Shown here: in pieces, positions 7,001-21,265 of the stretch
Position numbering within the stretch: position 1 is the first letter of the stretch
How the letters are laid out: each line of letters begins with the position of its first letter
Virus record (IMG/VR): IMGVR_UViG_3300018424_000306
Span: 1 to 21,265 of that record
Length of the DNA stretch: 21,265 nucleotides
Strand: one strand, 5' to 3'
Origin: a virus
Notes under the pieces: generated by a model
The model's input: only the letters and a program-made list of their open reading frames with translations
Told to the model about the DNA's origin: nothing
Database searches by the model: none
Translations under genes and position numbers: made by a program

Positions 7001-10000
7001 GTTTAGAGAAGGATATACTATTTTTGGATCATCCAAAGGAAAAACTGCCGTTGTCTCTTCTATTGTTAGAACAACATTTGTTCCGACTCTAAAGACTTTA
7101 ACAAGAACTCTTGGTAAATATAATTCTGATAGAGGAAAAGTTAGTTCTTCAAATCAAAAAATTACTGACTCGTTCTTCTATCAAGATTATTCATACGTGG
7201 TTAAAAGCAGAACTCCTATTAAAGAGTGGAGAAATGCTATTAAAGAGACAACTCATCCAGCTGGATTTAAAATGTTTGGCGAGGTTTATCTTGAGTCGGA
7301 AACTGATGTAAGAATGATTGAGAATCAACCAACTTCTCAAAAACTTACATCTTATGTAATTCTTCCTACAACAGCAGTATCTTCATACACAACCAAAAGA
7401 AATATCACCACTTCGGTTGTAAAAGTTGAAGATTCTAGAGTTGTTAGAGGTAGAGGATCTGTTGCTGTGGATTCTTTTGATGAATCTTTAACAAGAGTCA
7501 GAGATATCAAACTCTCACCAGAATTTAATGGTTCATATGATCCTTCTACTGGATTAAAAATTGGTAACAGAACTTTTACCATCACTGATGCTAAAACTGG
7601 GACTGCATTTTCTCCATATAATAATCAAGCATTGATGGTTACCCTTGATGGTGTAGCTCAACACCCAGGATATTCATATAAAATTAATGGTAATCAAATT
7701 ACTTTCTACGAAGCACCATTAGGAAAGAGACAAGAGAATGTTGATGGCGAAATTGTTGATGTTCCTGCACAAAAATATTACATTAGATCGTTTGAGTTTA
7801 GGGATGCATCTGACAACAATAGATATCTCAAAAAATTAAAAGATATTTCTAAAAACTTTGATGGTAGAACTAGAATCTTTGATTTGTTCTATGAAGATGG
7901 ATCTATCGTAAAGACAGATCCTAATGAAAATTTATTGATTTACCTTAATGCTGTACTGCAGCAGGATTCTTATGAAATTAGAAGATTCAGTAGCTCAACA
8001 AAAACTGATAGAATTGTGTTTTCAAAGGCACCTAAAAATTATGATGATTTGTATGAAGGTGGTGTAGCAAAACAATTAGACAATTATGAATATTTCTTTG
8101 GATATAGTGTAGGATCGTATGAGAGACTTTCAATTAATGAGAAGTTAATTCCATTCAATACTAAATCAAATCAATATCAAATTCTCGATAAAGATCGTAG
8201 AGTCAAAAACTTTGATACACCTTTGTATGCATATGTTTTTGTTGATGGAGTTTTACAGAAAGGAGATGGAATTTCTTATAGAGTAAATGGTCCATCAATT
8301 ACTTTCAGAAATCCTTTAAATTATGCAAAACAATCTGATGGGGAATACACTACGGCAAAAGTTGACATTCTCTATTTTTATGGCAAAGATTATGCTCCAA
8401 CTTTAACTGCATTTGATTTTGAAGATGATACTTTCTTCAATAGACCAGAAATTACTTTTACTGGAAATAGAGATTCTTTTGATTCTTGGTATAAGCAAAA
8501 TACCACAAATAAAACTATTGTATATCAAATTGTCAATGGTACACAAAGGGTTTGGGGCGAAGTTGTTGACATTGGACTATCCACTGGCGATGATTGGATC
8601 TTATACTTAAGATCTCAAAATTTAGATATTGTTGATGGTGAAGATGTTTACTTCTCAAGAAGATCTCCTTCTGGAACTCAAGATACTATTAGTTTGTCTT
8701 TTACTAATTTTACATACACATATCCAACATCATCTGTTACTGGCGAGAGAATTATTAACAGAGTAGAATCTAATTATGTTCCTTTCCAGTTTAGCAATCT
8801 TACTGATAATTATGAGTATAGCGGATTTGTTATTAGAGAACATCCCAACTTAAGAGTTGGTGACATGATTCAGATCGATGGCGAAAGTGAAATGCGTCAA
8901 GTTTATAGCATTCCTTTGTACGCCAATCCAAAAGAATATCGCGACGGACAACAAGTTTCTAACTCATATTATAGTAAATTATCTGTCGGATCTTACCAAA
9001 AGGATACTTTTGGTGAAGGACTGGCTGTCACTGCAAACACAGAAAATGGTGTTGTTACCAGTTTAAATTGGAACAAGAGAGATCTGCAAAGATATTTTGA
9101 TTATGGTATCCTACTGAATCCCACAGCATATCAGTATTACACACCACCAACTCTCAACTTTATCCCTGTAGAAAATTCTGGGGGAGGAGCAAAAGCAGAA
9201 GTAGTGGTTTATGGAGGTCAGGTTATTGACCTTGTATTAGTTGATGGTGGATCTGGTTACACCAAACCACCAAGAGTAGTTGTTGGTAGAGGATACAATA
9301 TTCTACGTAACAATAATTACGCCGAATCTTCTCTTAAAATAAAGAGAACTGCAGATACTGGAGTAGTTGGTGGCGTTAAGATGGTATCGATTGTTTCTGA
9401 TATCCCACTATGGTATCGTGAGCTGATTGAACACACCACTACAATGATTTCTCCAAATCCACTGGACTTCAAAGAAATTTTGGTATGTATTGTAACTCCT
9501 GATCCTATATCGGCAGAAATGTCAGGTACTACATATCATGAGCGCAAGACAACGGTACAACTTGAAGCGGAAAACAACAATATTACACATAATGAAACCC
9601 TGATCGAGAGAGATAATCAAATTATCAACAATCTCACATATAGCTCATATGAACATCCTATTACAAAATACTACCAAACAGGAGCATTAGATTTATACAA
9701 CACACCATTGGGCGATACTGATTACCTTTATAGTCACTACCTACCAGGAACATCTGTTAGGGACTTTATTGGATCATTGTATACTGATGTTGGATATTCT
9801 AATGTTTCTGGTATTACAATTGAACAGTTGGGATATTACTTTAATGATGAGTTCGAAACAATTACAGAATGGATAAATGAATATCAAATTACAGATTCTA
9901 ACATCACTACTGGAGGACGAGTATTGAATTTCGGACTTCCATCAATGCAAGAATTGGCATCTTACTTGGACGCCGATTTCTTGATTGGAGATACTGTTTT

Positions 10001-10187
10001 GTATATTCCAGACACTACTAATTTCCCATCATCTGGTAAATTACTTGTAGGGAAAGAAATCATTTCATATACAAGTAAACTTTCCGATCGTTTTATTGGC
10101 ATTACTAGAGGAAATAATGGAACAACAGAAGTTGACCATTCCGCTGGTGATATTTTGAGAACTATCGGTATTGCCACTACTGCTTAA
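1050..10187 (+). CDS. 7: Giant gp7-type baseplate wedge initiator (3045 aa) with very long insertion
   Basis: This protein is about three times the length of T4 gp7 (1032 residues). Residues 1-260 resemble the C-terminal block of T4 gp7: a helical start, then KRTLIKNISNFYKVKGTDKS, IRFIFNTIV and LIGQTI. The next part of that block appears only at residues 2048-2080, where W2060 and H2069-P-A-G-F keep the spacing of T4 RW...HPVGF. Between them lie GxGY beta-repeats (548-642, 1248-1273, 1790-1890), a YHYH-like domain (718-875) and a cupredoxin-like domain (about 1381-1488). After residue 2150 come three NGVxQ-type modules and another GxGY unit (2711-2749). Four RGxxGT modules occur, the last at the C-terminus. 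In T4, gp7 starts wedge assembly by binding gp10 and gp8. By eye only four cysteines occur in the whole protein. The ATG at 1050 follows the gp6 stop by four bases and has no clear Shine-Dalgarno. Virion role is near certain; the gp7 name is likely. Confidence 0.85.
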   Translation: MNTQISSLIEDQLPGFIVAQYENFQKVLENYYEHLESPGNPLDIITNLTSYHDIDNYEKNLLQERTSLSTYLNSSATTIIVDDASSFPERNGYIKIGDEICFYKERTQTEFLEVSRGVSGTTELGSLYSSSKFVSTQAKTHQAGVNVDNLSNLFLYAIVKSFEKQYLESFPQDYLKENVDKRTLIKNISNFYKVKGTDKSIRFIFNTIVSKSADDVPTTYYPKNQTLKASTSDWDSTYVVQATVLSGDPLWLIGQTIVQQSDNNSSVDYASAVVENVYSVDSDDGNVLYNLVINPQSLNSDFEIPQKTVLTRTVVPALTVGDTITVDSTFGWKSSSGVVVINGEVIAYEGKNARQFTIKKRGTITRTHGVGDIVTSYSAVKAVTPEGVVSLLVYGILTELNIETSNPYASIGDRVEVSKPGFETSDPILYDESSRNYRWKVNTTGSYPSIPLNPSVGLSLQSVLADIGAIYEDNDFYYIATSSYPSTQILTGSISEDLSDPELLKIVPKQTSTTSEIYKTSRRDVGIFVDGSIAFGYKDEDLIQYGPITRFVVTKKGSGYQNPPFILVNGQSEKAYAVLTGDTVSEIVSTSTDNYISPPTVEIVSGRNAVLDAVVTSGEVTSIKIVNPGEYYSSPPSIIISDLAGRGRFAEYRAEVSPFGQITELVKVDGGKFFTQENVRVTVIPDANANSGTARAEIREWVKNRHFGASLDDNGGLVIPSIDRNKNYYGVVSNPRRLRLRLSDNITTSTLQESIGIKSHSPILGYAYDGNPIYGPYGFSDPLDDNSGVVRMQSGYSLKTTRVDGPVDAPYALGTFVDDYQWTPTVDTGKTRLDVNNGRFCVTPEFPNGVYAYFLTIDAVGNPVFPYIVGENYYSLPVQSNYESDVSQKSLPRSVRKLFIPGTEKNGKSEIAIIDAVSKGSVSSVIVEDSQPNFGVGSRIYVDNSGTGGSGASGTVSSTFGKKVLSLESKDTKATKLNTSQSFYSFVGDIITQPSTGAQGELIRDTIEETTFVLRAVTGTFEAGSAIESSSTVLNLLLSQNSTYTQNATLELVLFEDPTNVIASGTVLSGTTEQNSVRIKVNSGSFSDYLNYADGETILKSSDLTNTPGSEIVVINDLSSNIQISSVEENIAILETDENHDFAEGDTIDITIDPDEALTETTYYVSKKRYQEVDLIPSFFNGKVDDTGIGSSTMVGLGRDYAGGVYPDVELIFSDFTNVRDGVGSAGDVGNAKATVTVNDNNFDGSGQIESIVITSGGSGYNTDDILTINPDAIAKADPTQFDTDVDATMVQLNQDIIDSYEQFYFVVDPADYQATLTFLGDSGDIFLDDDGIEYIYVEADEDNSRFRYIQTVPSEQLTDQDTLNGGAIVITQIVSDYPIGTPYPQFRFDVNGSENPDYTLRVGSTFTFTPILGHPVYIVSDYRTSVLEDGVALDMEEYTEAGGVTNNGSTDNTQTITFIPQVAGTYYYVCVSHPEAVGTLTVYPAPSTAIPLVSVNAVGLGDQRTEIVLDRVFSLSVGDTLSVGSEVVKITSIDRLNKKLGLERGVEGTRAVNHLPNASVTSYKPKYRFTPGTQIFGTDVNDPYVVSYDEKTHKLVVNYGYNAVNPRELTTVSSFADHSTPEKIVAVSKVEDPIDRLQFSLDNLNFLTNPIVDIQKYYFYRFDTSHPSMLGSYLDVSTSANFNVFTEEKEVGLAEPGNPGSYVRIRLGYGANIGDVKRQEVNFTTYYYFLTSSETDTGGSFLRVKDDPLAGRKTVVYTTDKKLVYNLSDVPQYDGTGDIRYTGRSIGKIASVVLDNLGNNYGSLPVIEGVVPAVGYRAEIDAVRDASSNTVNELTITYAGKDYSKPKAVVSGDGEGLKIDLTVDAGKITSAKVVNPGSGYTFTPTVEIIETDNKLFFDSSTIGIPQSVKFINYGTFYYDDDSIISSYETPQVLLLTQFDLNAFGQGEFIEQRVNGVVIASGRVAKNGWTVGSNVLRLVDVNGVFREGYTIFGSSKGKTAVVSSIVRTTFVPTLKTLTRTLGKYNSDRGKVSSSNQKITDSFFYQDYSYVVKSRTPIKEWRNAIKETTHPAGFKMFGEVYLESETDVRMIENQPTSQKLTSYVILPTTAVSSYTTKRNITTSVVKVEDSRVVRGRGSVAVDSFDESLTRVRDIKLSPEFNGSYDPSTGLKIGNRTFTITDAKTGTAFSPYNNQALMVTLDGVAQHPGYSYKINGNQITFYEAPLGKRQENVDGEIVDVPAQKYYIRSFEFRDASDNNRYLKKLKDISKNFDGRTRIFDLFYEDGSIVKTDPNENLLIYLNAVLQQDSYEIRRFSSSTKTDRIVFSKAPKNYDDLYEGGVAKQLDNYEYFFGYSVGSYERLSINEKLIPFNTKSNQYQILDKDRRVKNFDTPLYAYVFVDGVLQKGDGISYRVNGPSITFRNPLNYAKQSDGEYTTAKVDILYFYGKDYAPTLTAFDFEDDTFFNRPEITFTGNRDSFDSWYKQNTTNKTIVYQIVNGTQRVWGEVVDIGLSTGDDWILYLRSQNLDIVDGEDVYFSRRSPSGTQDTISLSFTNFTYTYPTSSVTGERIINRVESNYVPFQFSNLTDNYEYSGFVIREHPNLRVGDMIQIDGESEMRQVYSIPLYANPKEYRDGQQVSNSYYSKLSVGSYQKDTFGEGLAVTANTENGVVTSLNWNKRDLQRYFDYGILLNPTAYQYYTPPTLNFIPVENSGGGAKAEVVVYGGQVIDLVLVDGGSGYTKPPRVVVGRGYNILRNNNYAESSLKIKRTADTGVVGGVKMVSIVSDIPLWYRELIEHTTTMISPNPLDFKEILVCIVTPDPISAEMSGTTYHERKTTVQLEAENNNITHNETLIERDNQIINNLTYSSYEHPITKYYQTGALDLYNTPLGDTDYLYSHYLPGTSVRDFIGSLYTDVGYSNVSGITIEQLGYYFNDEFETITEWINEYQITDSNITTGGRVLNFGLPSMQELASYLDADFLIGDTVLYIPDTTNFPSSGKLLVGKEIISYTSKLSDRFIGITRGNNGTTEVDHSAGDILRTIGIATTA
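1290..1484 (+). repeat. RGxxGT beta-module, copy 1 of 4 (gp7 residues 81-145)
   Basis: The encoded unit reads as a hydrophobic strand, YIKIGDEICFYKE, then FLEVSRGVSGTTE, and ends at a THQAG motif. The pattern is hxIGxExIxY, then RGxxGT, then HxxG. Related units follow at 2007-2180, 5565-5741 and 9984-10184 in the same gene. Copies are diverged at DNA level, so this is a protein-domain repeat rather than a recent duplication. Confidence 0.7.
2007..2180 (+). repeat. RGxxGT beta-module, copy 2 of 4 (gp7 residues 320-377)
   Basis: The unit starts VGDTITVDSTF, continues GVVVINGEVIAYEG and FTIKKRGTITRTHGVGD. The RGxxGT core is altered to RGTITRT, but the preceding NGEVIAY and following HGVGD keep the order seen in copies 1 and 4. 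Confidence 0.65.
2691..2975 (+). repeat. GxGY beta-repeat cluster in gp7 (residues 548-642)
   Basis: Three consecutive units of about 30 residues share the form strand - G-S-G-Y - P-P - strand: FVVTKKGSGYQNPPFILVNG, then SEIVSTSTDNYISPPTVEIV, then SIKIVNPGEYYSSPPSIIIS. The short linkers contain the preceding GEVTSI-type strand. The same family recurs elsewhere in gp7, once in gp8 and in the 2704-residue protein. It is a beta-rich module common in structural proteins of marine T4-like phages; its precise role is unknown. Confidence 0.75.
3201..3674 (+). other. YHYH-like domain encoded within gp7 (residues 718-875)
   Basis: The region contains SHSPILGYAYDGNPIYGPYG (H760, D769-G-N-P-I-Y-G775), then GRFCVTPEFPNG (C841), YAYF (851-854) and FPYIVGENYY. 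This is the order of conserved elements in the YHYH domain family, whose members have a Y-D-G-x-P-I-Y-G loop followed by a YHYH strand. Here the naming motif reads Y-A-Y-F, so its histidines are lost. The family is of poorly understood function. It sits in the long insertion of gp7 and is likely displayed on the outside of the baseplate, which is an inference. Confidence 0.7.
4791..4868 (+). repeat. Single GxGY beta-repeat in gp7 (residues 1248-1273)
   Basis: The unit reads QIESIVITSGGSGYNTDDIL followed by TINPDA. It has the strand - GGSGY - strand form of the cluster at 2691-2975 but lacks the P-P pair. It lies between the YHYH-like and cupredoxin-like domains. Confidence 0.65.
5190..5512 (+). 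other. Cupredoxin-like domain encoded within gp7 (residues about 1381-1488)
   Basis: The segment has the beta-sandwich pattern of blue-copper proteins: an FRFDVNG strand, LRVGSTFTFTP, then GHPVYIVS with H1415 in the place of the first copper-binding histidine, a variable loop, ITFIPQVAGTYYYVCVSHPE with C1471 and H1474, and a closing GTLTVYPAP strand. Cupredoxins bind copper through His, Cys, His and usually Met. The Met expected three or four residues after H1474 is replaced by A1477-V1478. A three-ligand site could still bind metal, or the fold may be purely structural. C1471 is one of only about four cysteines in 3045 residues. Confidence 0.72.
5565..5741 (+). repeat. RGxxGT beta-module, copy 3 of 4 (gp7 residues 1506-1564)
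   Basis: The unit follows the cupredoxin-like domain directly and reads TEIVLDRVFSLSVGDTLSVG, then SEVVKITSI and LGLERGVEGTRAVNHLPNAS. RGVEGT and the later H match the RGxxGT...H pattern of copies 1 and 4. Confidence 0.68.
6417..6719 (+). repeat. Second GxGY beta-repeat cluster in gp7 (residues 1790-1890)
   Basis: Three units are visible: SVVLDNLGNNYGSLPVIEGV, then ELTITYAGKDYSKPKAVVSG, then SAKVVNPGSGYTFTPTVEII. The third unit is preceded by DLTVDAGKIT, matching the AVVTSGEVT linker before the third unit of the first cluster. The clusters therefore resemble each other over about 95-100 residues, consistent with an ancient three-unit duplication. Confidence 0.72.
7191..7310 (+). other. Second half of the T4 gp7-like C-terminal block (gp7 residues 2048-2087)
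   Basis: The segment reads SYVVKSRTPIKEWRNAIKET followed by THPAGFKMFGEVYL. T4 gp7 has near its C-terminus a segment of the form YYVMKIKS...RWKSDVIRFVHPVGF. W2060 and H2069 keep the nine-residue spacing and HPAGF replaces HPVGF. The T4 sequence is recalled from memory, so a profile alignment is the decisive test. If correct, this marks the end of the large insertion. Confidence 0.7.
7500..8318 (+). repeat. Three NGVxQ-type beta modules in gp7 (residues 2151-2423)
   Basis: Each module has a strand ending in a D/N-G/A-V-x-Q turn, then S-Y and a terminal strand. The three cores are LMVTLDGVAQHPGYSYKING with ITFYEAP, LIYLNAVLQQDSYEIRRF with IVFSKAP, and AYVFVDGVLQKGDGISYRVN with ITFRNPL. The first two begin with FNG or FDGRTRIFDL. 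Such modules (LxVxLNGVxQxPGxxYxVxGxxIxFxxAP) are widespread in phage tail and fibre proteins. They lie after the gp7-like block and probably form extended beta domains. Confidence 0.7.
9180..9296 (+). repeat. GxGY beta-repeat near the gp7 C-terminus (residues 2711-2749)
   Basis: The unit reads AKAEVVVYGGQVIDLVLVDG then GSGYTKPPRVVVGRGY. It is the best match to the family consensus in this protein: glycine-rich lead-in, GGxVxxLxLVxxGSGY, P-P and a valine strand. Confidence 0.75.
9984..10184 (+). repeat. RGxxGT beta-module, copy 4 of 4 (gp7 C-terminus, residues 2979-3045)
   Basis: The last 67 residues form this unit: IGDTVLYIPDTTNFPSSGKL, then LVGKEIISYTS, FIGITRGNNGTTEVDHSAGD. It is the clearest copy and closely parallels copy 1, which has the same SFP/NFP...G lead. 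The protein is thus flanked near both ends by the same module. Confidence 0.72.
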
Positions 10188-10195
10188 AAAGGCAG

Positions 10196-10209
10196 TATAA
10201 ATATAAATA
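10196..10209 (+). promoter_or_regulatory. Two overlapping T4-type late promoters upstream of gp8
   Basis: The 14 bases read TATAAATATAAATA, which is two perfect TATAAATA octamers (10196-10203 and 10202-10209) sharing two bases. TATAAATA is the T4 late-promoter consensus, read by RNA polymerase with the phage gp55 sigma factor and gp33 co-activator; T4-like cyanophages use the same type of motif. The octamers lie in the only sizeable gap before gp8, 33 bases or more upstream of its ATG. Transcription would be expected to start a few bases after each octamer, giving a leader of roughly 25-35 bases. Confidence 0.82.
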
Positions 10210-10241: not shown

Positions 10242-12119
10242 ATGGCTGCTATCATCTCGGAAAAGTTTAGAATTTTTAATGCGAAGCAGTTCCTAGAATC
10301 TCTGTCAGAGGGTTCTAGCGATACTGGCAGTGACAGAAGTAGAATGTACTTCTTTGTGGGGAGACCACAATCATGGGACTCCTTTTTAGAAATTTCATCT
10401 GTAGACGGAGCTGACAGTTTTGCTGTTGGTGACGGCGTATATGTTGGCGCTTCTTGGGCGGCAGCAACATTCAAGGCAACAGTAACCAAAGTTTTAGAGA
10501 ATTCTTTACTTCTCTCAAGCGTTGGTCCTTTGGTTACCGATTCTCCTGCACTTGGGTCTACGTTGACGGGTTATAATCAGACTACAAATGCAGATAAATT
10601 GGTAACAGCCACTACAGGTGTATATCGATTCTCAACAGAAAACATTCCTCCTGTACCTCTGGACAACCAAACCGAGAAATTTAGTGTCTATGATGACATT
10701 ATTGCAGCAAAGAGAATTACAAGTTCTTATGCAAGACACGTTGTAAGACGTTACAACTGGGATCTAATTAACAATCCCAAGTTTGACATGTATAAGTCCG
10801 ACTACTTTGCTACTCCTGCAGGTGGTGGTCAAATTGGTAAGTCAACTGCTACGGGCGCTACTTCTCTTGCCAATGCAAAATTCTACATCATGAACCAGCA
10901 GTATGAGGTGTTCAAGTGCCTCTACAATGGTGAAGATGAAGCAAATCCATCTGGTGTAAATATTGCTCACGAACCAAAAACTAATCCTCAACCTGGATTG
11001 GGTTCGTATTCTGGTGGAATTTTCACCGCTCCTGATAATTCATATATCTGGAAGTACATGTACACCATCCCAACCGATGATGTGCTGGCTTTCCTCTCCA
11101 CAGATTTCATGCCTATCAATGCTGCTGGAGAAACAACAAGAACTAACACCGAAGCGGCTGCCGTAGATGGCGCTGTACACGTCTCTCTTGTACCAAATAA
11201 AGGAACCCTCGCAGCACCTGTCGCAGGCACCTTCTATGCCCCTGTAGTGGGTGATGGTACGGGTGCTGTTGCCCAGATTACTATTGCTGGTGGAGAGGTT
11301 ACTGCCGTATCTATGACTCAAGTTGGTGCTGGTTATACATATGGATCTATTCCGTTCGTAACTGGTGTTCCTCTTGGAACAAATGGTAGCACCGAAGCAA
11401 TTGGTCTTTTCTCCGATGCTAATCTTACTGTTTCCGAAACTGTAACCGCTACAGACACCCCTGCGGTCGAACCTGTTATGTCACCCCAAGGTGGACATGG
11501 TTCTGATTTTGAGATGGAACTAAACTCCAAGAGAGTTATGACAAATATCCGCCTCACCTTTATCGAAAACGCTGGTGACTTCCCTGTGGATAACGACTTC
11601 CGTCGTATTGGAATTATCAAGGACCCATATGAATTTGGAAGCACTACGTTTGCTACATCAGATACTCTTAACGGTTTGAGAGCAATTAAAATTGATGGCG
11701 CTACTGGAGACTACATTCCTGATGAAATGATTAGTCAAACCGTTACTGGCGGAACAGCATATGGTCAAGTAGTTTCATGGACTCTTGATGCTGGATCTCC
11801 TGTTCCAACACCAAGCACCCCTGGAAGTGGTGTTCTGAAATATATTCAGACTCCATATCTCCATAAAGATACTGGGGTTGTTAGATTGTTTGTCAGCGAT
11901 GCTGCTAACGCTATTGTTGGCGATCAGTCTGGTTCTTCTGGCAATGTGGAAACTGGTTTAGCAGATGGAACCGAATTGATTGGTTCTATTTTTGTTGATG
12001 GTTTGGCAAATCCAGAAATCGAAAATAACTCTGGAGATCTTATATACATAGAGAACAGAAGACTAATTACAAGAGCTGCTGACCAAATTGAGGATATTAA
12101 ATTAGTCATCGAGTTCTGA
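10242..12119 (+). CDS. 8: Baseplate wedge protein gp8, expanded form (625 aa)
   Basis: The protein starts MAAIISEKFRIFNAKQFLES, parallel to the SKFRTEKMLNF start of T4 gp8, followed by FFVGRPQSW (T4 FGRSEPW). It continues with VVRRYNWD (T4 PRRDW), NSYIWKYMYTIP (T4 GYVWEYLFEIP), DFRRIGIIKDPYEFG (T4 GFRQISIITNP) and the C-terminus GDLIYIENRRLITRAADQIE (T4 GEMIYMENR...MDQTEE). The whole gp8 scaffold is therefore present. T4 gp8 has 334 residues; the extra length sits at about 48-130, 305-420 (with one GxGY repeat at 344-375) and 460-597. In T4, a gp8 dimer binds the gp7-gp10 complex before gp6 joins the wedge. The ATG at 10242 is preceded by a pyrimidine-rich stretch, not a Shine-Dalgarno. Only one cysteine is visible. 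Confidence 0.93.
   Translation: MAAIISEKFRIFNAKQFLESLSEGSSDTGSDRSRMYFFVGRPQSWDSFLEISSVDGADSFAVGDGVYVGASWAAATFKATVTKVLENSLLLSSVGPLVTDSPALGSTLTGYNQTTNADKLVTATTGVYRFSTENIPPVPLDNQTEKFSVYDDIIAAKRITSSYARHVVRRYNWDLINNPKFDMYKSDYFATPAGGGQIGKSTATGATSLANAKFYIMNQQYEVFKCLYNGEDEANPSGVNIAHEPKTNPQPGLGSYSGGIFTAPDNSYIWKYMYTIPTDDVLAFLSTDFMPINAAGETTRTNTEAAAVDGAVHVSLVPNKGTLAAPVAGTFYAPVVGDGTGAVAQITIAGGEVTAVSMTQVGAGYTYGSIPFVTGVPLGTNGSTEAIGLFSDANLTVSETVTATDTPAVEPVMSPQGGHGSDFEMELNSKRVMTNIRLTFIENAGDFPVDNDFRRIGIIKDPYEFGSTTFATSDTLNGLRAIKIDGATGDYIPDEMISQTVTGGTAYGQVVSWTLDAGSPVPTPSTPGSGVLKYIQTPYLHKDTGVVRLFVSDAANAIVGDQSGSSGNVETGLADGTELIGSIFVDGLANPEIENNSGDLIYIENRRLITRAADQIEDIKLVIEF
11271..11366 (+). repeat. GxGY beta-repeat in gp8 insertion (residues 344-375)
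   Basis: The unit reads AQITIAGGEVTAVSMTQVGA then GYTYGSIPFVTG, matching the glycine lead-in, GGxVxxVxxxxxGxGY and terminal strand of the gp7 copies. T4 gp8 has no counterpart as far as recalled. A short module shared by two wedge proteins that touch in the T4 baseplate is notable. Confidence 0.72.
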
Positions 12120-12160: not shown

Positions 12161-15100
12161 ATGCCACAGAAGACTAATCTTAACGCTATCCCATATTTTG
12201 ACGACTACGATTCCAGAAAAGACTTCTATAAGGTACTATTCAGACCTTCTTACCCCATCCAGGGTAGGGAGCTGAATAGTATTCAGTCTATTCTACAGAA
12301 TCAGATTGAAAACTATGGTAAGCATCAATTTAAGCAAGGGGACTTGGTTGTTCCTGGAGAAGTTGGTCTTAACACCAAGTTAGATTTTGTAAAGCTATCG
12401 TCTGTTTCCGAAGTTGCTGTTAATATTGATGGCGAAATCGTTTATCAAAAATACGACATTTCTGGTGTTGTAGGTCAGAAAGTTTCTGGTTTATCTTCTG
12501 GCGTAGTTGCTCTTGTTCTTGCTGTAGAAAAAGCAGGAACAAATAATGCAGACACCTTGTACGTTAAATATCTAACAGCTGGTGATAGTGGAGATGAAGA
12601 AACTTTCCGCCAAGGAGAGACTCTGGAGATTGTCGATGGCGTTAATAGTCCTCTTCTCGTTGTCGGCACTGACGGGTCTGTTCTACCTACGAGTATTTCT
12701 GTAATTAATCCTGACACTGGGGTATCTTCTTTTGAAGAAAGCCCTGCAATGGGATATGGATCTGCCGTGAAGGTAGAAGAAGGAATTTATTTTGTTAATG
12801 GATTTTTTGTACGCAATGATGCTGGTCTGATTCTTGTTTCTGGATATAGTCAGACTCCATCCACAAAAGTTGGATTTAATGTATCAGAGTCTATTGTAAC
12901 TCCAGAGCAAGATAGTAGTCTTTATGATAATGCTATTGGATCTTCAAACTTTGCTTCTCCTGGAGCACATCGATTGCAGATCAAGTTGTCTTTGGTCAAA
13001 TACGATTATACAGAGACTCCTGATAAAAACTTTATTCAACTCCTTTCTATTAAAGATGGTGTAGTTGAGCGTCAGGTACAGACTGCCGACTATAGCTTAT
13101 TAGAAGAGACTTTAGCAAGAAGAACCTACGACGAATCTGGTGACTATGTTGTAGATAATTTTGATTCTGAAGTTAGAGAATATTATCAAAGAGAAGGAAA
13201 TTTAGGTGTATATCCACTTGGATCTGATGGAACTGTTAATGGACTAGATCCAACCGAGGCAAGAGATAAATTAGCGTTTTCTATTGGTCCTGGAAAAGCA
13301 TATGTCCGTGGATATGAAATCGTAAACAAAGAGACGAAATATATTGCGTTTGACAAAGCAAGAGAAACTCTATTAAGAGACAACATCACCATCAAAACAA
13401 AAGGTCTCACATCTTTTAATATTACTAACGTATACAACACGTTACCTTTAAATGCTGAAGGTGCAGATTTAACTGCATATCCAACAATTTTCCTCAACGC
13501 TGTTCATAATGATGGAACTATCGCTTCCAATGATTTAGAAGACTCTACAAATTACTTACAGACAGTAAGTAGAAGAGGACAGTTTTTTGATAAAGACACC
13601 GCGATCAAAACAATTTATCTTACTGGTTCTATTGATTTTGGTCTTATTGATGAATCCAGCATCGAGGCAAATACTCCTTCGGACAGAGCAGACTTAAAGA
13701 ACATTTATTTCGTAAACACAAGAACTTCTAGTGGAGCTGTATCAACTGTTGAGAAAGTAGATACTATTTCTTTTGCTAAAGTTACAAGACCCGAAATAGG
13801 AGATACAAATGCACAATTCTTGCAGTTGACTGTTGCAGGAAGAAAAGATTACTTGGATAATCTTTTTATTGAATATGATGATAACGTTAGTATCAGAAGA
13901 AGACTTTTATACAATTCAGAATCTGATGCTCAACAAGAAATTAATGAGATTGGATTTATCAGTGACTACGATCAATCTATCACACCATTAATTGGTGTAG
14001 CAAAACCTAAAGATTTTTCATTATTAAAACGACCCTTTGGATTTAATCAAGATAAGGATATTGTAATTTCAAAAGGCAGACTTGCTTCTGGTGAAGAAAC
14101 TTATAATGGTCTTTTCAACTTATCATATTTTAATCCAATCTTCTTTACAAGGTTGTTAGTTGACTCCACTATTTCTAATGACTTTGCTCCTGGTAAGTAT
14201 ATTACTGGATCTCAAAGTGGAGCATATGGTGTCATTGAAGGAAATAGTAATGGATTCCTCTCTTCTGGCAGAAGTCTTTATGTAAAAACTCTATATGGAA
14301 ACTTCTTACCTGGAGAAACTATTACCAGTGAAGAAGGCGGCATTTTAAGAATTGCCAGAGAAAATACTATTTCTCACTTCGTTGTATCAAGACAAGGTAC
14401 TGGATATCAAACCACCAGCAAAATTTCTCTAAATGGTGTTCAGTTTGAACCTACTGATATTGCTGTGGGGGTAAATGGCGGAACTTTGTATAAGGTAGAA
14501 ATTCAGAACAGAGATGCAATATCTACTGAATATACTACACCTCCATCTGTAACATTCTCTGGCACTAGCACTATCAATGCAACTGTATTGCCAGTATTGT
14601 TCAAAAATACCGTTCTTACATTCTCTGCTCAAAATGTTAAGTCCTTGCATTCTACATACGGCAATGGAAATATTTTCACATCAGATGTAGAAACTGTTGA
14701 CAGTGCTTATGCCGAAATTAAATCAGTAACAGATTTTACTTTTGGTGGTACAAAGGGATACAAATATCTGGAATGTACTGGATTTAGTGCAGATGCTTCT
14801 CGCTATTTGGTTCAAGGAGATATAGTACAGTTTAATGATGATGTGGGAACTATTCACAAATTTGTAGTTGATTATGCCACATCCGCAGAAGGAACTACAA
14901 AATCAAGAATTTATTTGAATGGTTCTCTGCCAGAAAACATTACAGCTTCTTCAGTTGTTAGATTGCGTCCTCGGGTTGAAAACGGGGCATCATCTTCCTT
15001 GGTATTTCCAACTGGCAGTAAAGAAGTTAGTAGTTTAATCAGGACTACAGAAGACACAAAAATTAAGTATTACACAAGAAGAGACTTTGTTGCTACTGGA

Positions 15101-18100
15101 ACTAGCAGTGGTGGTAATGTCACTTTTGCTGCTCAATTAGATTTCGGTACGCAAAGATTCGTTGAGTTTAATGAGAAAGATTTTATCATTAGTATTTTAG
15201 ATAAAGGTGATTCTGATAAGGTAGAAACTGGAGATGTCATTTATATACAAGATGATTTTGTCACTATTTTAAATACGACTGACGAAACTTCTGGTCTTTC
15301 TTCTGGTAGTATTACATTGACTTTCCCAAGCAATTACTTTGGAAGTAATGTAACTAATTTCCCCAAACTGAAGTTGACTGCTACTATTGAGATCTCCAAG
15401 GGTAGACCAAAATTAAAAACAGCTGTTAGAGATAGAAGAATTATTATTAGAGCTGCTGGTGATAGAGTTATTCCTTTAAGAGGTATCAACTACGATGACG
15501 AAAGCACCGAATCATTTAGCTATTCCGATGCTTTTGCAATTAAATATATCTACGAGGGATCTGCTTCTTCTCCCCCAACTGTAGATGTAAATGGTAATTT
15601 GGTTGTAGGAACGGATATTACCGACAGATTTACTTTTGATAATGGACAAAGAGAAACTTTCTATGATGTTTCAAGAATTGTATTAAAACCAGGATTCTCC
15701 CCACCAACAGGTCAGATTGTTGTTGCTTTTGATTACTTCCAACATTCTCAAGGAGACTTCTGTACTGTAGATTCTTACATTCATGAGGCAGGCGTAGTTG
15801 CTGATGAAATTCCATCATTCAACAGCACCGTTTATGGTATCGTAAATCTCAAGAACGTTATTGATTTTAGACCAAAAGTAGATAGCAAGGCTATCATTAC
15901 TGGTTTCCAAGATACTTCTTTACTTTCACAAGCAGATTATATTAGTTTTACTGGTGATGGTGGAGCGGTATCAAGCACGCCTTCTTCTAGTAGAAGATTA
16001 CCTTACACTATGTCATTTAGTGAATCCCAGTATCTTGACAGAATTGATGGTGTGTTTCTTAATAAGAAGGGTGAGTTTGTAATTAAATCTGGAAACTCTT
16101 CTTTAAATCCAACAAAACCAGAAATTATTGAGGATGGTATTCCTCTATACTACATGTATATCCCTGCTTTCACAAAGTCAAGCAAGGACGTAAGGACTAT
16201 TCCTGTCGATAATCGTAGATATACGATGAAAGACATTGGCAAATTGGAGAAGCGTATTGAACGTTTGGAATACTACACCACATTAAGTATTCTTGAACAG
16301 CAAGCTCTCAACATGCAAGTCAAGGACGTTCTTGGAATTGACAAAACGAAGAGCGGTTTTGTTGTAGATAATTTTGAAACTCATCAAGTCGGAAACGTTA
16401 AGTCTTTGGATTATAAGTGTTCCGTTGATCCCCAGCAATCAGTTCTTCGCCCACAATCAAAAGAAGATAGTTTTAATTTAATTGAAGTGAATACAAGGGA
16501 TGATCAAAGAACTATTTCTGGTTACAAGAACTCGAAGGATGTAATTACTCTCCCCTATGAGAGTGTTGCCTACGCAAACAATTCTTTTGCAACAAAGACT
16601 ATCAATCCCAATCCTTTTGTTATTATTCAATATGTTGGCGATGCATCTTTGATTCCTAATATTGATCAGTGGTATAACACTACTGTAGCTCCTTTGGTAA
16701 CAGAGAACAACACAAATCTGTTCTCAATTTTCTTGGGCAAGAGCGACGTAAGAGCAGCGTTTGCAAGCATCTACAATTCTTTTGTAATCAACTGGGTAGG
16801 AATTAATAAATCTTTCTACAATATTAATAGTTTTGGAGATAGCAATAGTAATGTTTCCGATTCTAGCGTAAGTTCTGCGAGTATTTCTAGTTCTTCTAAT
16901 GTAAGCCCACAAAACAATGAGATTGCAAAGGGTGTTGGATATAAGACTATAAATGGAACCAACGTTGCAAATGCGTTGAGATTCTTCGCAAGATCAATTC
17001 CTGTTAAGTTTACTCTCAAGAGATTGAAGCCAAAGACTCAATTGTTTGTCTTCATGGATCAAAGAGATGTTAATCGTTGGGTCAATCCAGACTCCAGATT
17101 TACTGGTGTTGCTGGCAACTCCCTAACCACATTTAACACTCCTCTTACTACAGATGAGTATGGCAACGCAAGTGGTATTATTCTAATTCCAGCAGGTCAT
17201 GCTCCTAGAATGAACACTTCTTGGACTGGAGATATCAATACGTTACAATATGATGAAACGTCAGAGGAACTATATTTCTCTACAGGAATTAAGAATATCA
17301 GATTCACTTCAAGCTCTTCTGATTCTGATAGAAATAATGTTGATACCTACGCAGAAGTTAAATTCTATGCTACTGGTATTTTACCTCAAAATCCAGCATC
17401 TATCATTTCTACAGCACCAGCAATTTTCAAAGCAAATGAGGGTGTACAGTTAATTGATAGCAATACAGAAAATACCGCAAGACCAAATCCCCTTGCACAA
17501 ACTTTCAAGGTGGAAAATTTTGAAGGAGGTATGTTTGCTACTGGCGTAGATCTGTTCTTTGCCAAGAAGAGTTCTACTATTCCTTTGAGAGTATATTTGA
17601 CAAATATTGAGAGTCAAAAACCAAGTAAGTATATTATTCCAGGAACACAAATTACTTTATATCCCGATACTTTCTTGAGAGTATATTCTTCTGGGAATAT
17701 TACCATTAAGCAAGGTGAATACGTGACTGGTCAAAGATCTTTAGCATCTGGACCGATTAGTAAAGTTCTGGATAAAAACAATTTTGAAGTAGTTCCTTCT
17801 AGTAATGGTGAGATTTCTATCACTAATGAGCAAGTGTACACGTTTATCTTGAGTAACCATAATGGTTCTTCTTTTACTGCAAATGAAGATCTTTCACTTA
17901 CTTCAGTAACTCAATTCAACAATTCAAACAATGCTACCGTAGGACTTAAAATTGCTAAAGATTCTGGTAGGGTCACTTCTTTGGATGTAACTAATTTGGG
18001 ATCTGGATATGAAGGTGCAACTATCACTATTGAAAGTCCCCAACTCCCTGGTGGAAGTAATGCCACTGGATCTGCGAAGGTATATAATGGTCAACTTTAT

Positions 18101-20275
18101 TTTGCACAAGTGGCTCTTGGTGGTAGAGGATATACAGAGGCACCTTCAGTAGTAATTAGAGGTTCTGGTAATGGCGCTACTGGTGCTGTTATTCAATCTA
18201 AAATTACTATCGATGAACCCGCTGTAAGAATGGGTATTGCTTCTGATGATGGTTCTTCGGTAGATTCCACAACTCCCACCAGATTCAATTTCGATTATCC
18301 AGTATATTTACAAGATAATACAGAATATGCATTGAACATCGAATGTGATGATACCGAATACGAAATTTGGTCTTCACGATTAGGTGAGACAGATATTTCT
18401 TCTGGATTGGTTGTAAATGCCCAACCTCTCTTGGGTTCAGTATTTAAATCTCAAAATACAAATGCTTGGACGGAAGATTTATTCGAAGACATTAAATTTA
18501 CTCTTTATAGAGCAAAGTTTGATATTTCAAGAACAGCAGAATTGCTAATCAAAAATAATGATCTTGGATATGAAAAACTTGACTCCAATGCTTTTGAAAC
18601 ATATGCATTAGCAAATAGCACTGCTACTTCCAGTCTGTTTAAGAATAATAGTTCTATCGTCAAAGTTTATCACAGAGATCATGGTTTTGAAGGAAAAGGA
18701 AAATCAAAAGTATTTTTCCGTGGTGTAGAAGACTTTGCTGGATATGATGAGATCGATATTGAGTCATCTCTGTTTACAGTCGCTAATTCTGGTATTGATT
18801 CTTATACTATTGTGGGACCAAGTAGAGCATCTGCAACAGGATTTGGAGGTGGCGATACTATTCTCGCTACTTATAATAGAAAATATGAAAAGCTCTATGC
18901 TCAAATTCCATATCTTCAAGTTTCAAACACGAAGATTAACAGCTTCGTCCAAACCACAAATGTAGTCCCTGTTGATTCTAACACGACTAACTATAAGTCA
19001 TATGATGTTTCTGAAATGGAAACTACTTTCCTCAACGAAGAGCATTATTTCTTGAATCAAAAAATTATTTCTTCAAGAATTAATGAAGTTATCAACGGTA
19101 CTAATAACTCTTTATTATATAAGATCAATCTATCTTCAGAGTCTTCTCACTTGTCCCCATTGATTGATTTGAGAACGGCTTCAGTAAAAACTATTTCTAA
19201 CAGAGTAGAGAATAGCACAGGATCTGAAGATAGATTTGGCAAGAGATATCAGAGTATTCAGTTCTATCCTGTTTACAAATTTACCATCACAGGAAATAAC
19301 GAAGGTCTGGGTGGAAATGATATTCTTGCAACCATCGATCAAAATGTCACTGGTTTGACTTCTGGTGCTCAATCCGAAGTTCTTCGCGTAATCAACAATG
19401 ACGTTTATGTAAAAATTAAAAATTCCTTACAGTTTACTGTTGGTGAAGAACTATACTTCAGCACTCAATCTGATGTGGGTGGTGATTATGAGAATCTAAC
19501 TATTGTCGTTTCTGATGATGGAATCTACGATCAAATTCCAACGTTTGTTGTCGGTGCAACAGTAACTGCTTTTAATCCTTCGGTAAGAAGTGAGAAGTAT
19601 GATAATAAGATCAGTGGAAAGGTTATCATCTGGGATTCAAAATCCAGAATGTTGACATTAGAAAATGATAAGCAACCAATTAATAATGATTTCACCAGTG
19701 CCATTACTTTGGGTAGTGACTATGCAAGAGAAAGTCAAACATCTGATCAGATTGCTGACATTTTCCGAGTAGGAGAATTGGTTGATTTTGATGGATCATC
19801 GTTCGAGACCAGTAAATTCTATGAAATCAAATCTATGGAGTTTACTCAAGGTGTTGATTATGTACCAGAAAACGGTTCCTTGAATACTTCTGGGGTTGCA
19901 AAATATGTTACTAAAGAGATCTTTATCAACAATCCAGCAAGTTCTATTAATGTCTATTTGACATTGAACATTAGAGATGTCGATAACATCAAAGTGTTCT
20001 ATAAGATTAAACCAGCAGCATCACAGCAAAACTTTGATGATGTTAATTGGGAATACTTTAATGGAACAGGATCTCCAGATCAGGAGGATGAAATTGCAAC
20101 TGCAGAGAACAGTATCTCTGGTCAGTTTGAGAAGCAGTCTTCTTATCAAGAGTTAAGATACACGGCAGAAGAACTTACCGAGTTCTCTTCATTTGCCATC
20201 AAGATTGTAATGAAGACCGATGATCCAGCATATGTACCCAAGATTCAAGATCTACGAGCAGTAGCTTCATTCTGA
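12161..20275 (+). CDS. Giant virion structural protein (2704 aa), DUF4815-like, at the gp9/gp10 position
   Basis: This is a very long, beta-rich, low-cysteine protein. Residues 22-58 carry FYKVLFRPSYPIQGRELNSI and QSILQNQIENYG, a start seen in DUF4815-type phage tail proteins. Residues about 374-403 have IGPGKAYVRGYEI. A helical coiled coil follows at 1355-1389 (LEKRIERLEYYTTLSILEQQ), then FVVDNFETHQVG (1401-1412) and SVDPQQSVLRP. A serine-rich linker lies at 1557-1584. Further elements typical of these proteins are FTLKRLKPKTQLFVFMDQRD, TTDEYGNASGIILIPAG, NPLAQTFKVEN (about 1776) and YLQDNTEYAL...WSSRLGE. The C-terminus is SSFAIKIVMKT...VPKIQDLRAVASF. GxGY repeats occur at 739-801 and 1931-2003. 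Its position after gp8 and before a fibre gene suggests a baseplate-periphery or fibre-attachment protein that may stand in for T4 gp9/gp10. The DUF assignment is from memory and the role is inferred. Confidence 0.78.
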   Translation: MPQKTNLNAIPYFDDYDSRKDFYKVLFRPSYPIQGRELNSIQSILQNQIENYGKHQFKQGDLVVPGEVGLNTKLDFVKLSSVSEVAVNIDGEIVYQKYDISGVVGQKVSGLSSGVVALVLAVEKAGTNNADTLYVKYLTAGDSGDEETFRQGETLEIVDGVNSPLLVVGTDGSVLPTSISVINPDTGVSSFEESPAMGYGSAVKVEEGIYFVNGFFVRNDAGLILVSGYSQTPSTKVGFNVSESIVTPEQDSSLYDNAIGSSNFASPGAHRLQIKLSLVKYDYTETPDKNFIQLLSIKDGVVERQVQTADYSLLEETLARRTYDESGDYVVDNFDSEVREYYQREGNLGVYPLGSDGTVNGLDPTEARDKLAFSIGPGKAYVRGYEIVNKETKYIAFDKARETLLRDNITIKTKGLTSFNITNVYNTLPLNAEGADLTAYPTIFLNAVHNDGTIASNDLEDSTNYLQTVSRRGQFFDKDTAIKTIYLTGSIDFGLIDESSIEANTPSDRADLKNIYFVNTRTSSGAVSTVEKVDTISFAKVTRPEIGDTNAQFLQLTVAGRKDYLDNLFIEYDDNVSIRRRLLYNSESDAQQEINEIGFISDYDQSITPLIGVAKPKDFSLLKRPFGFNQDKDIVISKGRLASGEETYNGLFNLSYFNPIFFTRLLVDSTISNDFAPGKYITGSQSGAYGVIEGNSNGFLSSGRSLYVKTLYGNFLPGETITSEEGGILRIARENTISHFVVSRQGTGYQTTSKISLNGVQFEPTDIAVGVNGGTLYKVEIQNRDAISTEYTTPPSVTFSGTSTINATVLPVLFKNTVLTFSAQNVKSLHSTYGNGNIFTSDVETVDSAYAEIKSVTDFTFGGTKGYKYLECTGFSADASRYLVQGDIVQFNDDVGTIHKFVVDYATSAEGTTKSRIYLNGSLPENITASSVVRLRPRVENGASSSLVFPTGSKEVSSLIRTTEDTKIKYYTRRDFVATGTSSGGNVTFAAQLDFGTQRFVEFNEKDFIISILDKGDSDKVETGDVIYIQDDFVTILNTTDETSGLSSGSITLTFPSNYFGSNVTNFPKLKLTATIEISKGRPKLKTAVRDRRIIIRAAGDRVIPLRGINYDDESTESFSYSDAFAIKYIYEGSASSPPTVDVNGNLVVGTDITDRFTFDNGQRETFYDVSRIVLKPGFSPPTGQIVVAFDYFQHSQGDFCTVDSYIHEAGVVADEIPSFNSTVYGIVNLKNVIDFRPKVDSKAIITGFQDTSLLSQADYISFTGDGGAVSSTPSSSRRLPYTMSFSESQYLDRIDGVFLNKKGEFVIKSGNSSLNPTKPEIIEDGIPLYYMYIPAFTKSSKDVRTIPVDNRRYTMKDIGKLEKRIERLEYYTTLSILEQQALNMQVKDVLGIDKTKSGFVVDNFETHQVGNVKSLDYKCSVDPQQSVLRPQSKEDSFNLIEVNTRDDQRTISGYKNSKDVITLPYESVAYANNSFATKTINPNPFVIIQYVGDASLIPNIDQWYNTTVAPLVTENNTNLFSIFLGKSDVRAAFASIYNSFVINWVGINKSFYNINSFGDSNSNVSDSSVSSASISSSSNVSPQNNEIAKGVGYKTINGTNVANALRFFARSIPVKFTLKRLKPKTQLFVFMDQRDVNRWVNPDSRFTGVAGNSLTTFNTPLTTDEYGNASGIILIPAGHAPRMNTSWTGDINTLQYDETSEELYFSTGIKNIRFTSSSSDSDRNNVDTYAEVKFYATGILPQNPASIISTAPAIFKANEGVQLIDSNTENTARPNPLAQTFKVENFEGGMFATGVDLFFAKKSSTIPLRVYLTNIESQKPSKYIIPGTQITLYPDTFLRVYSSGNITIKQGEYVTGQRSLASGPISKVLDKNNFEVVPSSNGEISITNEQVYTFILSNHNGSSFTANEDLSLTSVTQFNNSNNATVGLKIAKDSGRVTSLDVTNLGSGYEGATITIESPQLPGGSNATGSAKVYNGQLYFAQVALGGRGYTEAPSVVIRGSGNGATGAVIQSKITIDEPAVRMGIASDDGSSVDSTTPTRFNFDYPVYLQDNTEYALNIECDDTEYEIWSSRLGETDISSGLVVNAQPLLGSVFKSQNTNAWTEDLFEDIKFTLYRAKFDISRTAELLIKNNDLGYEKLDSNAFETYALANSTATSSLFKNNSSIVKVYHRDHGFEGKGKSKVFFRGVEDFAGYDEIDIESSLFTVANSGIDSYTIVGPSRASATGFGGGDTILATYNRKYEKLYAQIPYLQVSNTKINSFVQTTNVVPVDSNTTNYKSYDVSEMETTFLNEEHYFLNQKIISSRINEVINGTNNSLLYKINLSSESSHLSPLIDLRTASVKTISNRVENSTGSEDRFGKRYQSIQFYPVYKFTITGNNEGLGGNDILATIDQNVTGLTSGAQSEVLRVINNDVYVKIKNSLQFTVGEELYFSTQSDVGGDYENLTIVVSDDGIYDQIPTFVVGATVTAFNPSVRSEKYDNKISGKVIIWDSKSRMLTLENDKQPINNDFTSAITLGSDYARESQTSDQIADIFRVGELVDFDGSSFETSKFYEIKSMEFTQGVDYVPENGSLNTSGVAKYVTKEIFINNPASSINVYLTLNIRDVDNIKVFYKIKPAASQQNFDDVNWEYFNGTGSPDQEDEIATAENSISGQFEKQSSYQELRYTAEELTEFSSFAIKIVMKTDDPAYVPKIQDLRAVASF
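14375..14563 (+). repeat. GxGY beta-repeat pair in the 2704-aa protein (residues 739-801)
   Basis: The first unit reads HFVVSRQGTGYQTTSKISLN, close to FVVTKKGSGYQNPPFILVNG in gp7. The second has YKVEIQNRDAISTEYTTPPS followed by VTFSG and lacks the GxGY core but keeps the P-P-S strand. Confidence 0.68.
16222..16326 (+). other. Predicted coiled coil in the 2704-aa protein (residues 1355-1389)
   Basis: The segment MKDIGKLEKRIERLEYYTTL then SILEQQALNMQVKD shows heptad spacing of L and I (KLEKRIERLEYYTTLSILEQ). It is the only clearly helical stretch in an otherwise beta-rich protein, lies about mid-protein, and precedes the VVDNFETHQVG motif. A trimeric or dimeric assembly point is plausible. Confidence 0.6.
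17951..18169 (+). repeat. GxGY beta-repeat pair in the 2704-aa protein (residues 1931-2003)
   Basis: Two good copies are present: DSGRVTSLDVTNLGSGYEGA with TITIESP, and KVYNGQLYFAQVALGGRGYT with EAPSVVIRGSG. Both keep the G-x-V/L strand, G-x-G-Y and terminal strand of the gp7 and gp8 repeats. Confidence 0.73.
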
Positions 20276-20276
20276 T

Positions 20277-20471
20277 ATGCAAAGATACGTCAAGGTCGAA
20301 GGACAAGAAGGATTTGTAAGAGACATGACTACAGGGGCAATTATCAACACTGCCCCCAAGTCTTCTCGCAAATCCTTTTCTAATGAGTTCCGAAATGTAG
20401 TCAGTGAAATAAATACTTTGAAGGAAGAAATGTCCGAAATTAAATCCCTACTCAAGCAGTTAATCAAATGA
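20277..20471 (+). CDS. Small conserved phage protein with C-terminal coiled coil (64 aa)
   Basis: The ATG follows the TGA of the upstream gene by one base and the TGA overlaps the next ATG, so all three genes are likely translationally coupled. The N-terminus reads YVKVEGQEGFVRDMTTGAII then NTAPKSS, a pattern recalled from small conserved proteins of T4-like cyanophages (YVKVEG...LVRD...GAIINT). The C-terminal 25 residues, EINTLKEEMSEIKSLLKQLI, have heptad-spaced I and L and should form a coiled coil. There is no signal peptide or membrane segment. Function is unknown; a small virion or assembly cofactor linked to the flanking baseplate and fibre genes is a guess from context. The gene is probably real because of its motif conservation and tight spacing. 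Confidence 0.78.
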   Translation: MQRYVKVEGQEGFVRDMTTGAIINTAPKSSRKSFSNEFRNVVSEINTLKEEMSEIKSLLKQLIK

Positions 20472-21265
20472 CATTACGCAACGTACCAAATAGCTATACG
20501 CTGGAACAGCAGCGTCAAGAGATTAACTTGATGGCAGTGGATCTAGATAATGCAGTGGATGGCATTCAAACATTTACTGGAGAAAAAACATTCTCTAACA
20601 ATACAATATTTTCAAGTGATGTAACTTTTGAAACACAGGCTTTCTGGGGAGACGGAGATCAGGCAGTCTTTGGTGCAGACAGTGATATGTTGCTATATCA
20701 TACAGGACTTGTTGGATTGTTAGAGAATACTACTGGAGATTTTTATTTAAGGTCTGGTGTAGGAACTGCAATTCATATCGAACCTGCTGCTGGTGCGGAC
20801 AGTATTATTGCAAATGCTGGTGGTTCTGTAGAACTCTATTACAATGCTTCCAAAACATTTGAAACTAGTTCTACAGGTGTAACAGTTACAGGAGATCTTG
20901 ATTTAAATGGAGATTTAGACGTACAAGATTTTGTAACTTTATGTTCAACTTCTGGAAATGTTGTTCTTGGTAGTTTGGCGAACCCTAATGCCAACATAAG
21001 TATTTACGCTGGTACATCTCCTGGAACTACAAATTATTTTCAGTTACGTGCAAGTGGTAATGAAGCTTATATCACCAATACTGGCGGATCTGGTAGTGGC
21101 GGTGGTATGAACATTTCTGCTCGCACTACTCTCGGATTATATTCTGGTGGTACTGGAGGACAGTATATTACTTTCGTTAGTGATTCGAACGGTGCTGCAA
21201 ATCTATATTACCAATCTTTAAAGAAACTAGAAACCACTACCTCTGGTGTATCTATCTCTGGCACA
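20468..21265 (+). CDS. Tail-fibre-like structural protein, 5' part (3' end outside window)
   Basis: The frame opens at the ATG overlapping the previous stop (ATGA at 20468-20471) and stays open for 266 codons to the window edge. The N-terminus MTLRNVPNSYTLEQQRQEIN and LMAVDLDNAV is helical and may anchor to the baseplate. It is followed by FTGEKTFSNNTIFSSDVTFE and then repeats typical of cyanophage fibres: FGADSDMLLYHTG, ENTTGDFYLRS, VELYYNASKTFETSSTGVTV (from residue 121) and NLYYQSLKKLETTTSGVSIS (from residue 245). Such repeats form trimeric beta-fibres in known phage tails. Glycine- and serine-rich stretches such as NTGGSGSGGGM occur between them. It could be a side fibre or a baseplate spike; which host molecule it meets cannot be told from sequence. 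Confidence 0.83.
   Translation, partial: MTLRNVPNSYTLEQQRQEINLMAVDLDNAVDGIQTFTGEKTFSNNTIFSSDVTFETQAFWGDGDQAVFGADSDMLLYHTGLVGLLENTTGDFYLRSGVGTAIHIEPAAGADSIIANAGGSVELYYNASKTFETSSTGVTVTGDLDLNGDLDVQDFVTLCSTSGNVVLGSLANPNANISIYAGTSPGTTNYFQLRASGNEAYITNTGGSGSGGGMNISARTTLGLYSGGTGGQYITFVSDSNGAANLYYQSLKKLETTTSGVSISGT
20828..20893 (+). repeat. LYYxxxKxxETTSTGV fibre repeat, copy 1 (residues 121-142)
   Basis: The unit VELYYNASKTFETSSTGVTV followed by TG matches the copy at the window end in 22 aligned positions with the pattern xxLYYxxxKxxETxxxGVxxxG. The intervening spacing is about 124 residues. Confidence 0.7.
21200..21265 (+). repeat. LYYxxxKxxETTSTGV fibre repeat, copy 2 (residues 245-266, reaching window edge)
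   Basis: The unit NLYYQSLKKLETTTSGVSIS followed by GT aligns with the copy at 20828-20893. Finding two copies shows that the fibre is modular and that more copies may lie beyond the window. Confidence 0.68.

Follow-up and report, generated by a model that had tools for sequence, protein, structure and literature searches.

The 2704-residue protein encoded at 12161-20275 (+) of the 21,265-base IMG/VR fragment analyzed here (the window) appears, on strong evidence from sequence comparison, to be an enlarged cyanophage member of the VrlC/DUF4815 family of baseplate tripod proteins. It fills the slot occupied in T4 by gp9-gp12 but is not a fused version of those proteins. In the virion it is very probably the tripod or pyramid protein, most likely a trimer that would sit on an arm made of gp8 and a gp7-like protein and contact the cell at adsorption. 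Earlier papers have described the VrlC family, its occurrence in cyanophages and its connection with double-layered baseplates (PMC7029224; PMC11406892; PMC11721090). The present analysis adds the explicit test for gp9, gp10 and gp11, the correction that VrlC does not occupy the gp7 slot, and the recognition that the small partner and the inserted repeats are shared.

The open reading frame starts with ATG, has no internal stops and begins 41 nt after the gp8 stop. All genes of the window are on the + strand. They encode the C-terminal part of gp6, truncated by the window start (2..1045; Pfam Gp6_C-III and Baseplate_J); a gp7-like wedge protein of 3045 residues (1050..10187); the baseplate wedge protein gp8, 625 residues (10242..12119; Pfam Phage-Gp8, E 7e-10); the VrlC/tripod-family protein; a helix-rich 64-residue protein with the motif RDxxTGAI (20277..20471; phrog_473, E 4.9e-19); and an incomplete fibre-like protein that runs past the window end (20468..21265), in the slot of RBP1 of phage phi812. 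Two exact, overlapping T4-type late-promoter boxes, TATAAATA, lie upstream of gp8 (10196..10209, +) and are the sole exact matches within the window. Synechococcus phage S-CAM3 (Kyanoviridae, Charybdisvirus), whose genome is complete, has the identical gene order with a large protein that is 88.7% identical, and S-PM2 has a matching arrangement with near-equal lengths plus one additional gene before gp8. Since the same order and similar lengths are annotated in these two phages, the frame and its length are neither a chance reading nor an assembly join. Relatives of the protein were found by tblastn in 1466 phage records, and thus the arrangement is not peculiar to this contig. The initial annotation had placed one 2704-residue protein in the gp9/gp10 position directly after gp8, followed by a 64-residue protein and a fibre gene, and this order holds in the window as in S-CAM3 and S-PM2.

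The protein as a whole matches DUF4815 with an E-value of 1e-45 (156.6 bits against a Pfam curated cut-off of 30) and phrog_358 of PHROGs with 1936 bits. A DUF4815-like start had been proposed; the domain is real and its N-terminal stretch is present, but it extends over three stretches rather than the start alone. These are residues 11-92 (12191..12436; model 2-79), 202-403 (12764..13369; model 66-238) and 1290-1508 (16028..16684; model 376-567). The sole sequence match in the PDB is ORF65 of Staphylococcus phage phi812 (9euf chain 0, E 2.9e-29), collinear with residues 6-100, 203-336, 1261-1518 and 2027-2128, and labeled "tripod protein, structural component of the baseplate" in the phi812 GenBank record KJ206563.

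Homology beyond DUF4815 reaches the C-terminal half. Profiles built from IMG/VR relatives only retrieved the phi812 tripod and no other PDB chain, both with residues 1505-2704 (E 1.7e-42) and with residues 404-1560 (E 9.1e-15). A conserved block of the C-terminal half (18239..18544) matches tripod residues 848-951, both by sequence and with the 1505-2704 profile. When phi812 was excluded from the profile, hhalign still matched the C-terminal half to the tripod at 99.9% (E 3e-32). Six family members, drawn from Kyanoviridae, Ackermannviridae and Herelleviridae, align over their whole length, the cyanophage excess being internal insertions; conservation through to the C-terminal end, as first claimed, is borne out. 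Two AlphaFold2 models with mean pLDDT of 78 and 80 cover residues 404-2704, residues 1-403 being assessed by sequence only. Both models rank phi812 baseplate chains first (E 1.5e-9 and 9.6e-7), with low whole-model TM-scores of 0.09-0.18. The low scores reflect a differing domain arrangement and the modeling of monomers, so the fold evidence backs the family and leaves the domain geometry unfixed. A proposed central coiled coil shrinks to a short heptad-like helix at residues 1356-1383 (16226..16309), where the structure model has helices at 1356-1373 and 1378-1383 only; its motif, RRYTMxDIGKLExRIExLEYYTxLSxLEQ, is conserved.

The phi812 tripod (ORF65, gp119; PDB 9euf and related) has the same construction, DUF4815 followed by a conserved C-terminal half, and is collinear with the window protein nearly to the C-terminus. 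The order in phi812 (KJ206563) is wedge, arm scaffold, arm segment, tripod, 52-residue ORF and receptor-binding protein 1, paralleled in the window by gp6, gp7-like, gp8, VrlC, 64-residue ORF and fibre. The tripod differs in its length of 1152 residues, less than half that of the window protein, in lacking the cyanophage insertions and in its Gram-positive host. In Listeria phage A511 the VrlC homologue is Gp106 (PMC11406892), followed by the small Gp107. Each arm bears two Gp106 trimers, the pyramids, which make the baseplate double-layered and turn to the cell wall once the receptor-binding proteins attach (PMC9863714). The adsorption data are from Listeria, and LMTA-34, a Listeria phage, stood in for A511 in the comparisons here; the baseplate facts for phi812 and A511 are drawn from later reviews and record annotation. 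VriC (VrlC) of the Ackermannviridae, such as Det7 and AV101, likewise belongs to phrog_358, has a related small partner, resembles the A511 and phi812 baseplate proteins (review, PMC11721090) and has been suggested to form baseplate prongs. It is shorter, about 1640 residues, and lies between the tailspike cluster and gp13/gp14 rather than behind gp8. Pelagiphage HTVC008M shares the order gp25, gp6, gp7-like, gp8, VrlC (2001 residues) and a 72-residue protein; its VrlC is without the GSGY repeats described below and without the insertion at residues 2350-2555.

Together these relationships suggest that VrlC is likely a trimer at the baseplate periphery that touches the cell and has been enlarged by inserted beta-rich modules. 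Trimerization would depend on its DUF4815 part together with the short central helix, and the trimer would dock on an arm made of gp8 and the gp7-like wedge protein, with the beta-rich C-terminal half pointing outward to contact the cell. At adsorption the trimers would turn to the cell and touch its surface, and they may help to relay the signal to the wedges ahead of sheath contraction. The trimers, pyramids and reorientation come from the A511 papers, and by analogy we infer the geometry and receptor contact of cyanophage VrlC; no baseplate structure of a marine T4-like cyanophage was found. Two facts fit such a role. The S-CREM2 orthologue is a major virion protein: mass spectrometry gave 450 unique peptides, the top count among the rows listed, with 46% coverage (PMC10665884). 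Peptide density in that proteome is 16.9 per 100 residues for VrlC, compared with 18.1, 4.7 and 11.0 for the gp6-like, gp7-like and gp8-like proteins, which suits a multi-copy part and is too crude for a copy number. The S-PM2d orthologue (S-PM2d084, assigned by offset from the 3048-residue S-PM2d081) acquired an early non-synonymous change during chemostat coevolution with the host, alongside other virion proteins (PMC9910659).

That early mutation could also be expected if VrlC were the main receptor-binding fibre, itself binding the receptor, rather than a supporting or sensing element. The protein is long and beta-rich with fast-changing insertions, one insertion has weak fold similarity to Ig-like bacterial adhesin domains (E 0.01-0.09), and a Bacillus phage homologue bears carbohydrate-binding folds (PMC11406892). 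However, the VrlC core is strongly conserved among phages that infect unrelated hosts, S-CAM3 has separate fibres and Mtd- or CBM-bearing proteins after VrlC, and receptor binding in phi812 and A511 is assigned to proteins encoded by other genes. A main-fibre function is thus unlikely, although it is the best placed of the alternatives.

A second proposal, made for pelagimyophages and cyanomyophages, is that VrlC replaces T4 gp7, since gp7 was reported absent and VrlC universal in these phages (PMC7029224). The slot between gp6 and gp8 is however taken by the 3045-residue protein, which matches phrog families of baseplate wedge proteins that also touch T4 gp7. In addition, two of its motifs, at residues 142-212 and 2048-2075, match T4 gp7 collinearly, though each only weakly (E about 0.03); they are about 1840 residues apart, compared with about 110 in T4 gp7. 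VrlC itself scored just 0.04% against T4 gp7 by hhalign. On the gene order and the two motif matches the substitution was dismissed as very unlikely. The 3045-residue protein also has a YHYH domain at residues 749-859, and it showed no detectable similarity to the arm scaffold of phi812 or LMTA-34. The gp7-like protein of HTVC008M (L008:7505-10555) is annotated as "head closure Hc2", a label at odds with a gene that lies between gp6 and gp8 and perhaps derived from cross-matches to phrog_460 and phrog_3465.

T4 gp9, gp10 and gp11 share with VrlC the slot after gp8 and a peripheral baseplate location, the latter assigned to the window protein by homology, as first proposed. No sequence or fold relationship between them was detected. 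In T4, gp9 and gp10 both contain T4_gp9_10_N and _C, gp10 has in addition Gp10_D3 and Gp10_C, and gp11 has the GP11 domain. None of these domains was found by Pfam in the 2704-residue protein, the T4_gp9_10 domains being absent at E-values up to 1. The family profile scored 0.35, 0.10 and 1.93% against T4 gp10, gp9 and gp11 by hhalign, none of them meaningful, and deeper profiles reached only 0.7 and 0.3% with gp10. Neither model (residues 404-2704) had a T4 gp9, gp10 or gp11 structure in its best 50 fold matches, even though gp10 structures are among those deposited.

The window is a 21-kb fragment; genes elsewhere in the genome were searched in complete relatives, chiefly S-CAM3. Of the two findings that the initial annotation named as refuting its reading, recognizable gp9, gp10 and gp11 genes elsewhere did not turn up in S-CAM3, S-PM2 or HTVC008M; the other, assignment of the protein to a different virion part, did come about with the tripod. 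Pfam found no gp10-like domains in the downstream proteins of S-CAM3, and no match to PF07880 rose above the cut-off in S-CAM3 and 16 further VrlC-bearing records; weak matches in IMG/VR records and S-CREM2 stayed below it. A weak match of phrog_677, a gp9-type connector family, in the S-CAM3 gp7-like protein (E 0.003) was treated as chance. Across 22 records DUF4815 and T4_gp9_10_N are mutually exclusive. All 17 records chosen from Kyanoviridae, Ackermannviridae, Herelleviridae and Menderavirus have DUF4815, and five T4-type phages (T4, KVP40, RB49, Aeh1 and RB43) lack it; T4_gp9_10_N is present in each of these five and, above the cut-off, in none of the 17. As a match to VrlC was the basis for selecting the VrlC-bearing records, what informs here is that gp9/gp10 are missing from them and DUF4815 from the T4-type phages. 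The Ackermannviridae also are without Gp9-Gp12, and their gp10-like XD domains belong to the tailspikes TSP2 and TSP4 (review, PMC11721090). Since these are chains separate from VrlC, a single virion contains both VrlC and gp10-like domains as distinct entities.

The suggestion that the large protein unites by descent the wedge-periphery and fibre-connector roles of T4 gp9 and gp10 in a single chain, for which its peripheral location directly after gp8 and the want of separate gp9, gp10 and gp11 genes in the three relatives would speak, is contradicted by the full-length VrlC relationship, the same profile giving at most 0.7% with gp9 and gp10 and 99.9% with the phi812 tripod, and on the domain, profile and fold evidence it was dismissed as highly improbable.

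BW3TFN, the arm segment family of the Herelleviridae, matches the gp8 C-terminus of HTVC008M (E 1.8e-5), S-CREM2 (1.6e-4), T4 (0.002) and S-CAM3 (0.02). None of these matches reaches the Pfam cut-off; the weak gp8 matches include those at W05:C1:37750-37905, at W13:C1:84829-84936 and in the gp8 of locus L004. An N-terminal motif of gp8 also agrees with the arm segment (hhalign E 0.001). The C-terminal matches and the N-terminal motif suggest, through a weak link, that gp8 and the arm segment may be the same part. In the genome of Synechococcus elongatus, included as a cellular control, both DUF4815 and BW3TFN matched above the cut-off, perhaps in a prophage or a phage-tail-like system.

A small partner gene follows VrlC in 78 of the 81 loci with downstream sequence. 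The partners of cyanophages, pelagiphages and Ackermannviridae are related by profile (phrog_473 and phrog_4322), and the small Herelleviridae ORFs after the tripod share only a short start of the RDxxSGAI type (LMTA-34 and SPO1L5). In the literature the partner is Gp107 in A511 or a "chaperone" in Bacillus phages (63-64 residues; PMC11406892). The 64-residue protein is probably an assembly partner or chaperone of VrlC.

The excess length over phi812 is made up of lineage-specific beta-rich insertions. The largest, inside DUF4815 (residues 404-1150; 13370..15610), is beta-rich and confidently modeled. Close, middle and far relatives share 75, 47 and 23% identity with the window protein here (35% gaps in the far ones), compared with 84, 63 and 40% for the VrlC core, and distant relatives carry just part of the insertion. 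A C-terminal insertion (residues 2350-2555; 19208..19825) has 77% gaps in far relatives. Among middle relatives the insertions at 404-1150, 1850-2029 and 2350-2555 are 47, 54 and 37% identical against the 63% of the core, and are thus faster-changing. The approximately 1100 residues inserted relative to distant members could carry other functions. One inserted module (17945..18181) consists of GSGY-type repeats, recognized with an HMM built here (E 1.2e-6 and 1.4e-16). The repeat, with a consensus of about 48 residues (...GKITSITITNGGSGYTSAPVVVITGTGSGAT), occurs five times in the gp7-like protein, once in gp8 and twice in VrlC, the three being neighboring baseplate proteins. It is found also in S-PM2 and partly in HTVC008M; the same HMM found none in the analyzed regions of T4, phi812, Det7 and AV101.

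A tentative generalization, rated a little short of an even chance, is that contractile phages swap whole non-homologous peripheral modules on a conserved anchor, gp8 as a relative of the Herelleviridae arm segment, and that the marine tripod has been enlarged by modules common to the gp7-like protein and gp8. If so, gp8 would be followed either by gp9-gp12 or by a tripod with its small partner, two sets that do not occur together in any of the phages sampled, and marine phages would have an outsized baseplate periphery as yet unseen in any structure. VrlC-bearing cyanophages and pelagiphages are abundant. T4 often serves as the reference for their baseplates; for the periphery, phi812 and A511 would be the better one. 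The tripod assignment would correct the labels "virulence-associated protein" and "baseplate wedge initiator", resolve the puzzle of the missing gp9-gp12 and supply a structural model consisting of a tripod trimer, an arm segment equivalent to gp8 and a small partner.

VrlC is divided into two consecutive ORFs at L093:9992-16449, L096:413-6688 and L139:2782-6172, and SPO1L5 also encodes it in two. L093 and L096 split at the same site, near residue 1778, with the second ORF beginning at a QTF motif and with a TAATG overlap in L093. Residue 1778 or thereabouts is a natural seam of the protein.
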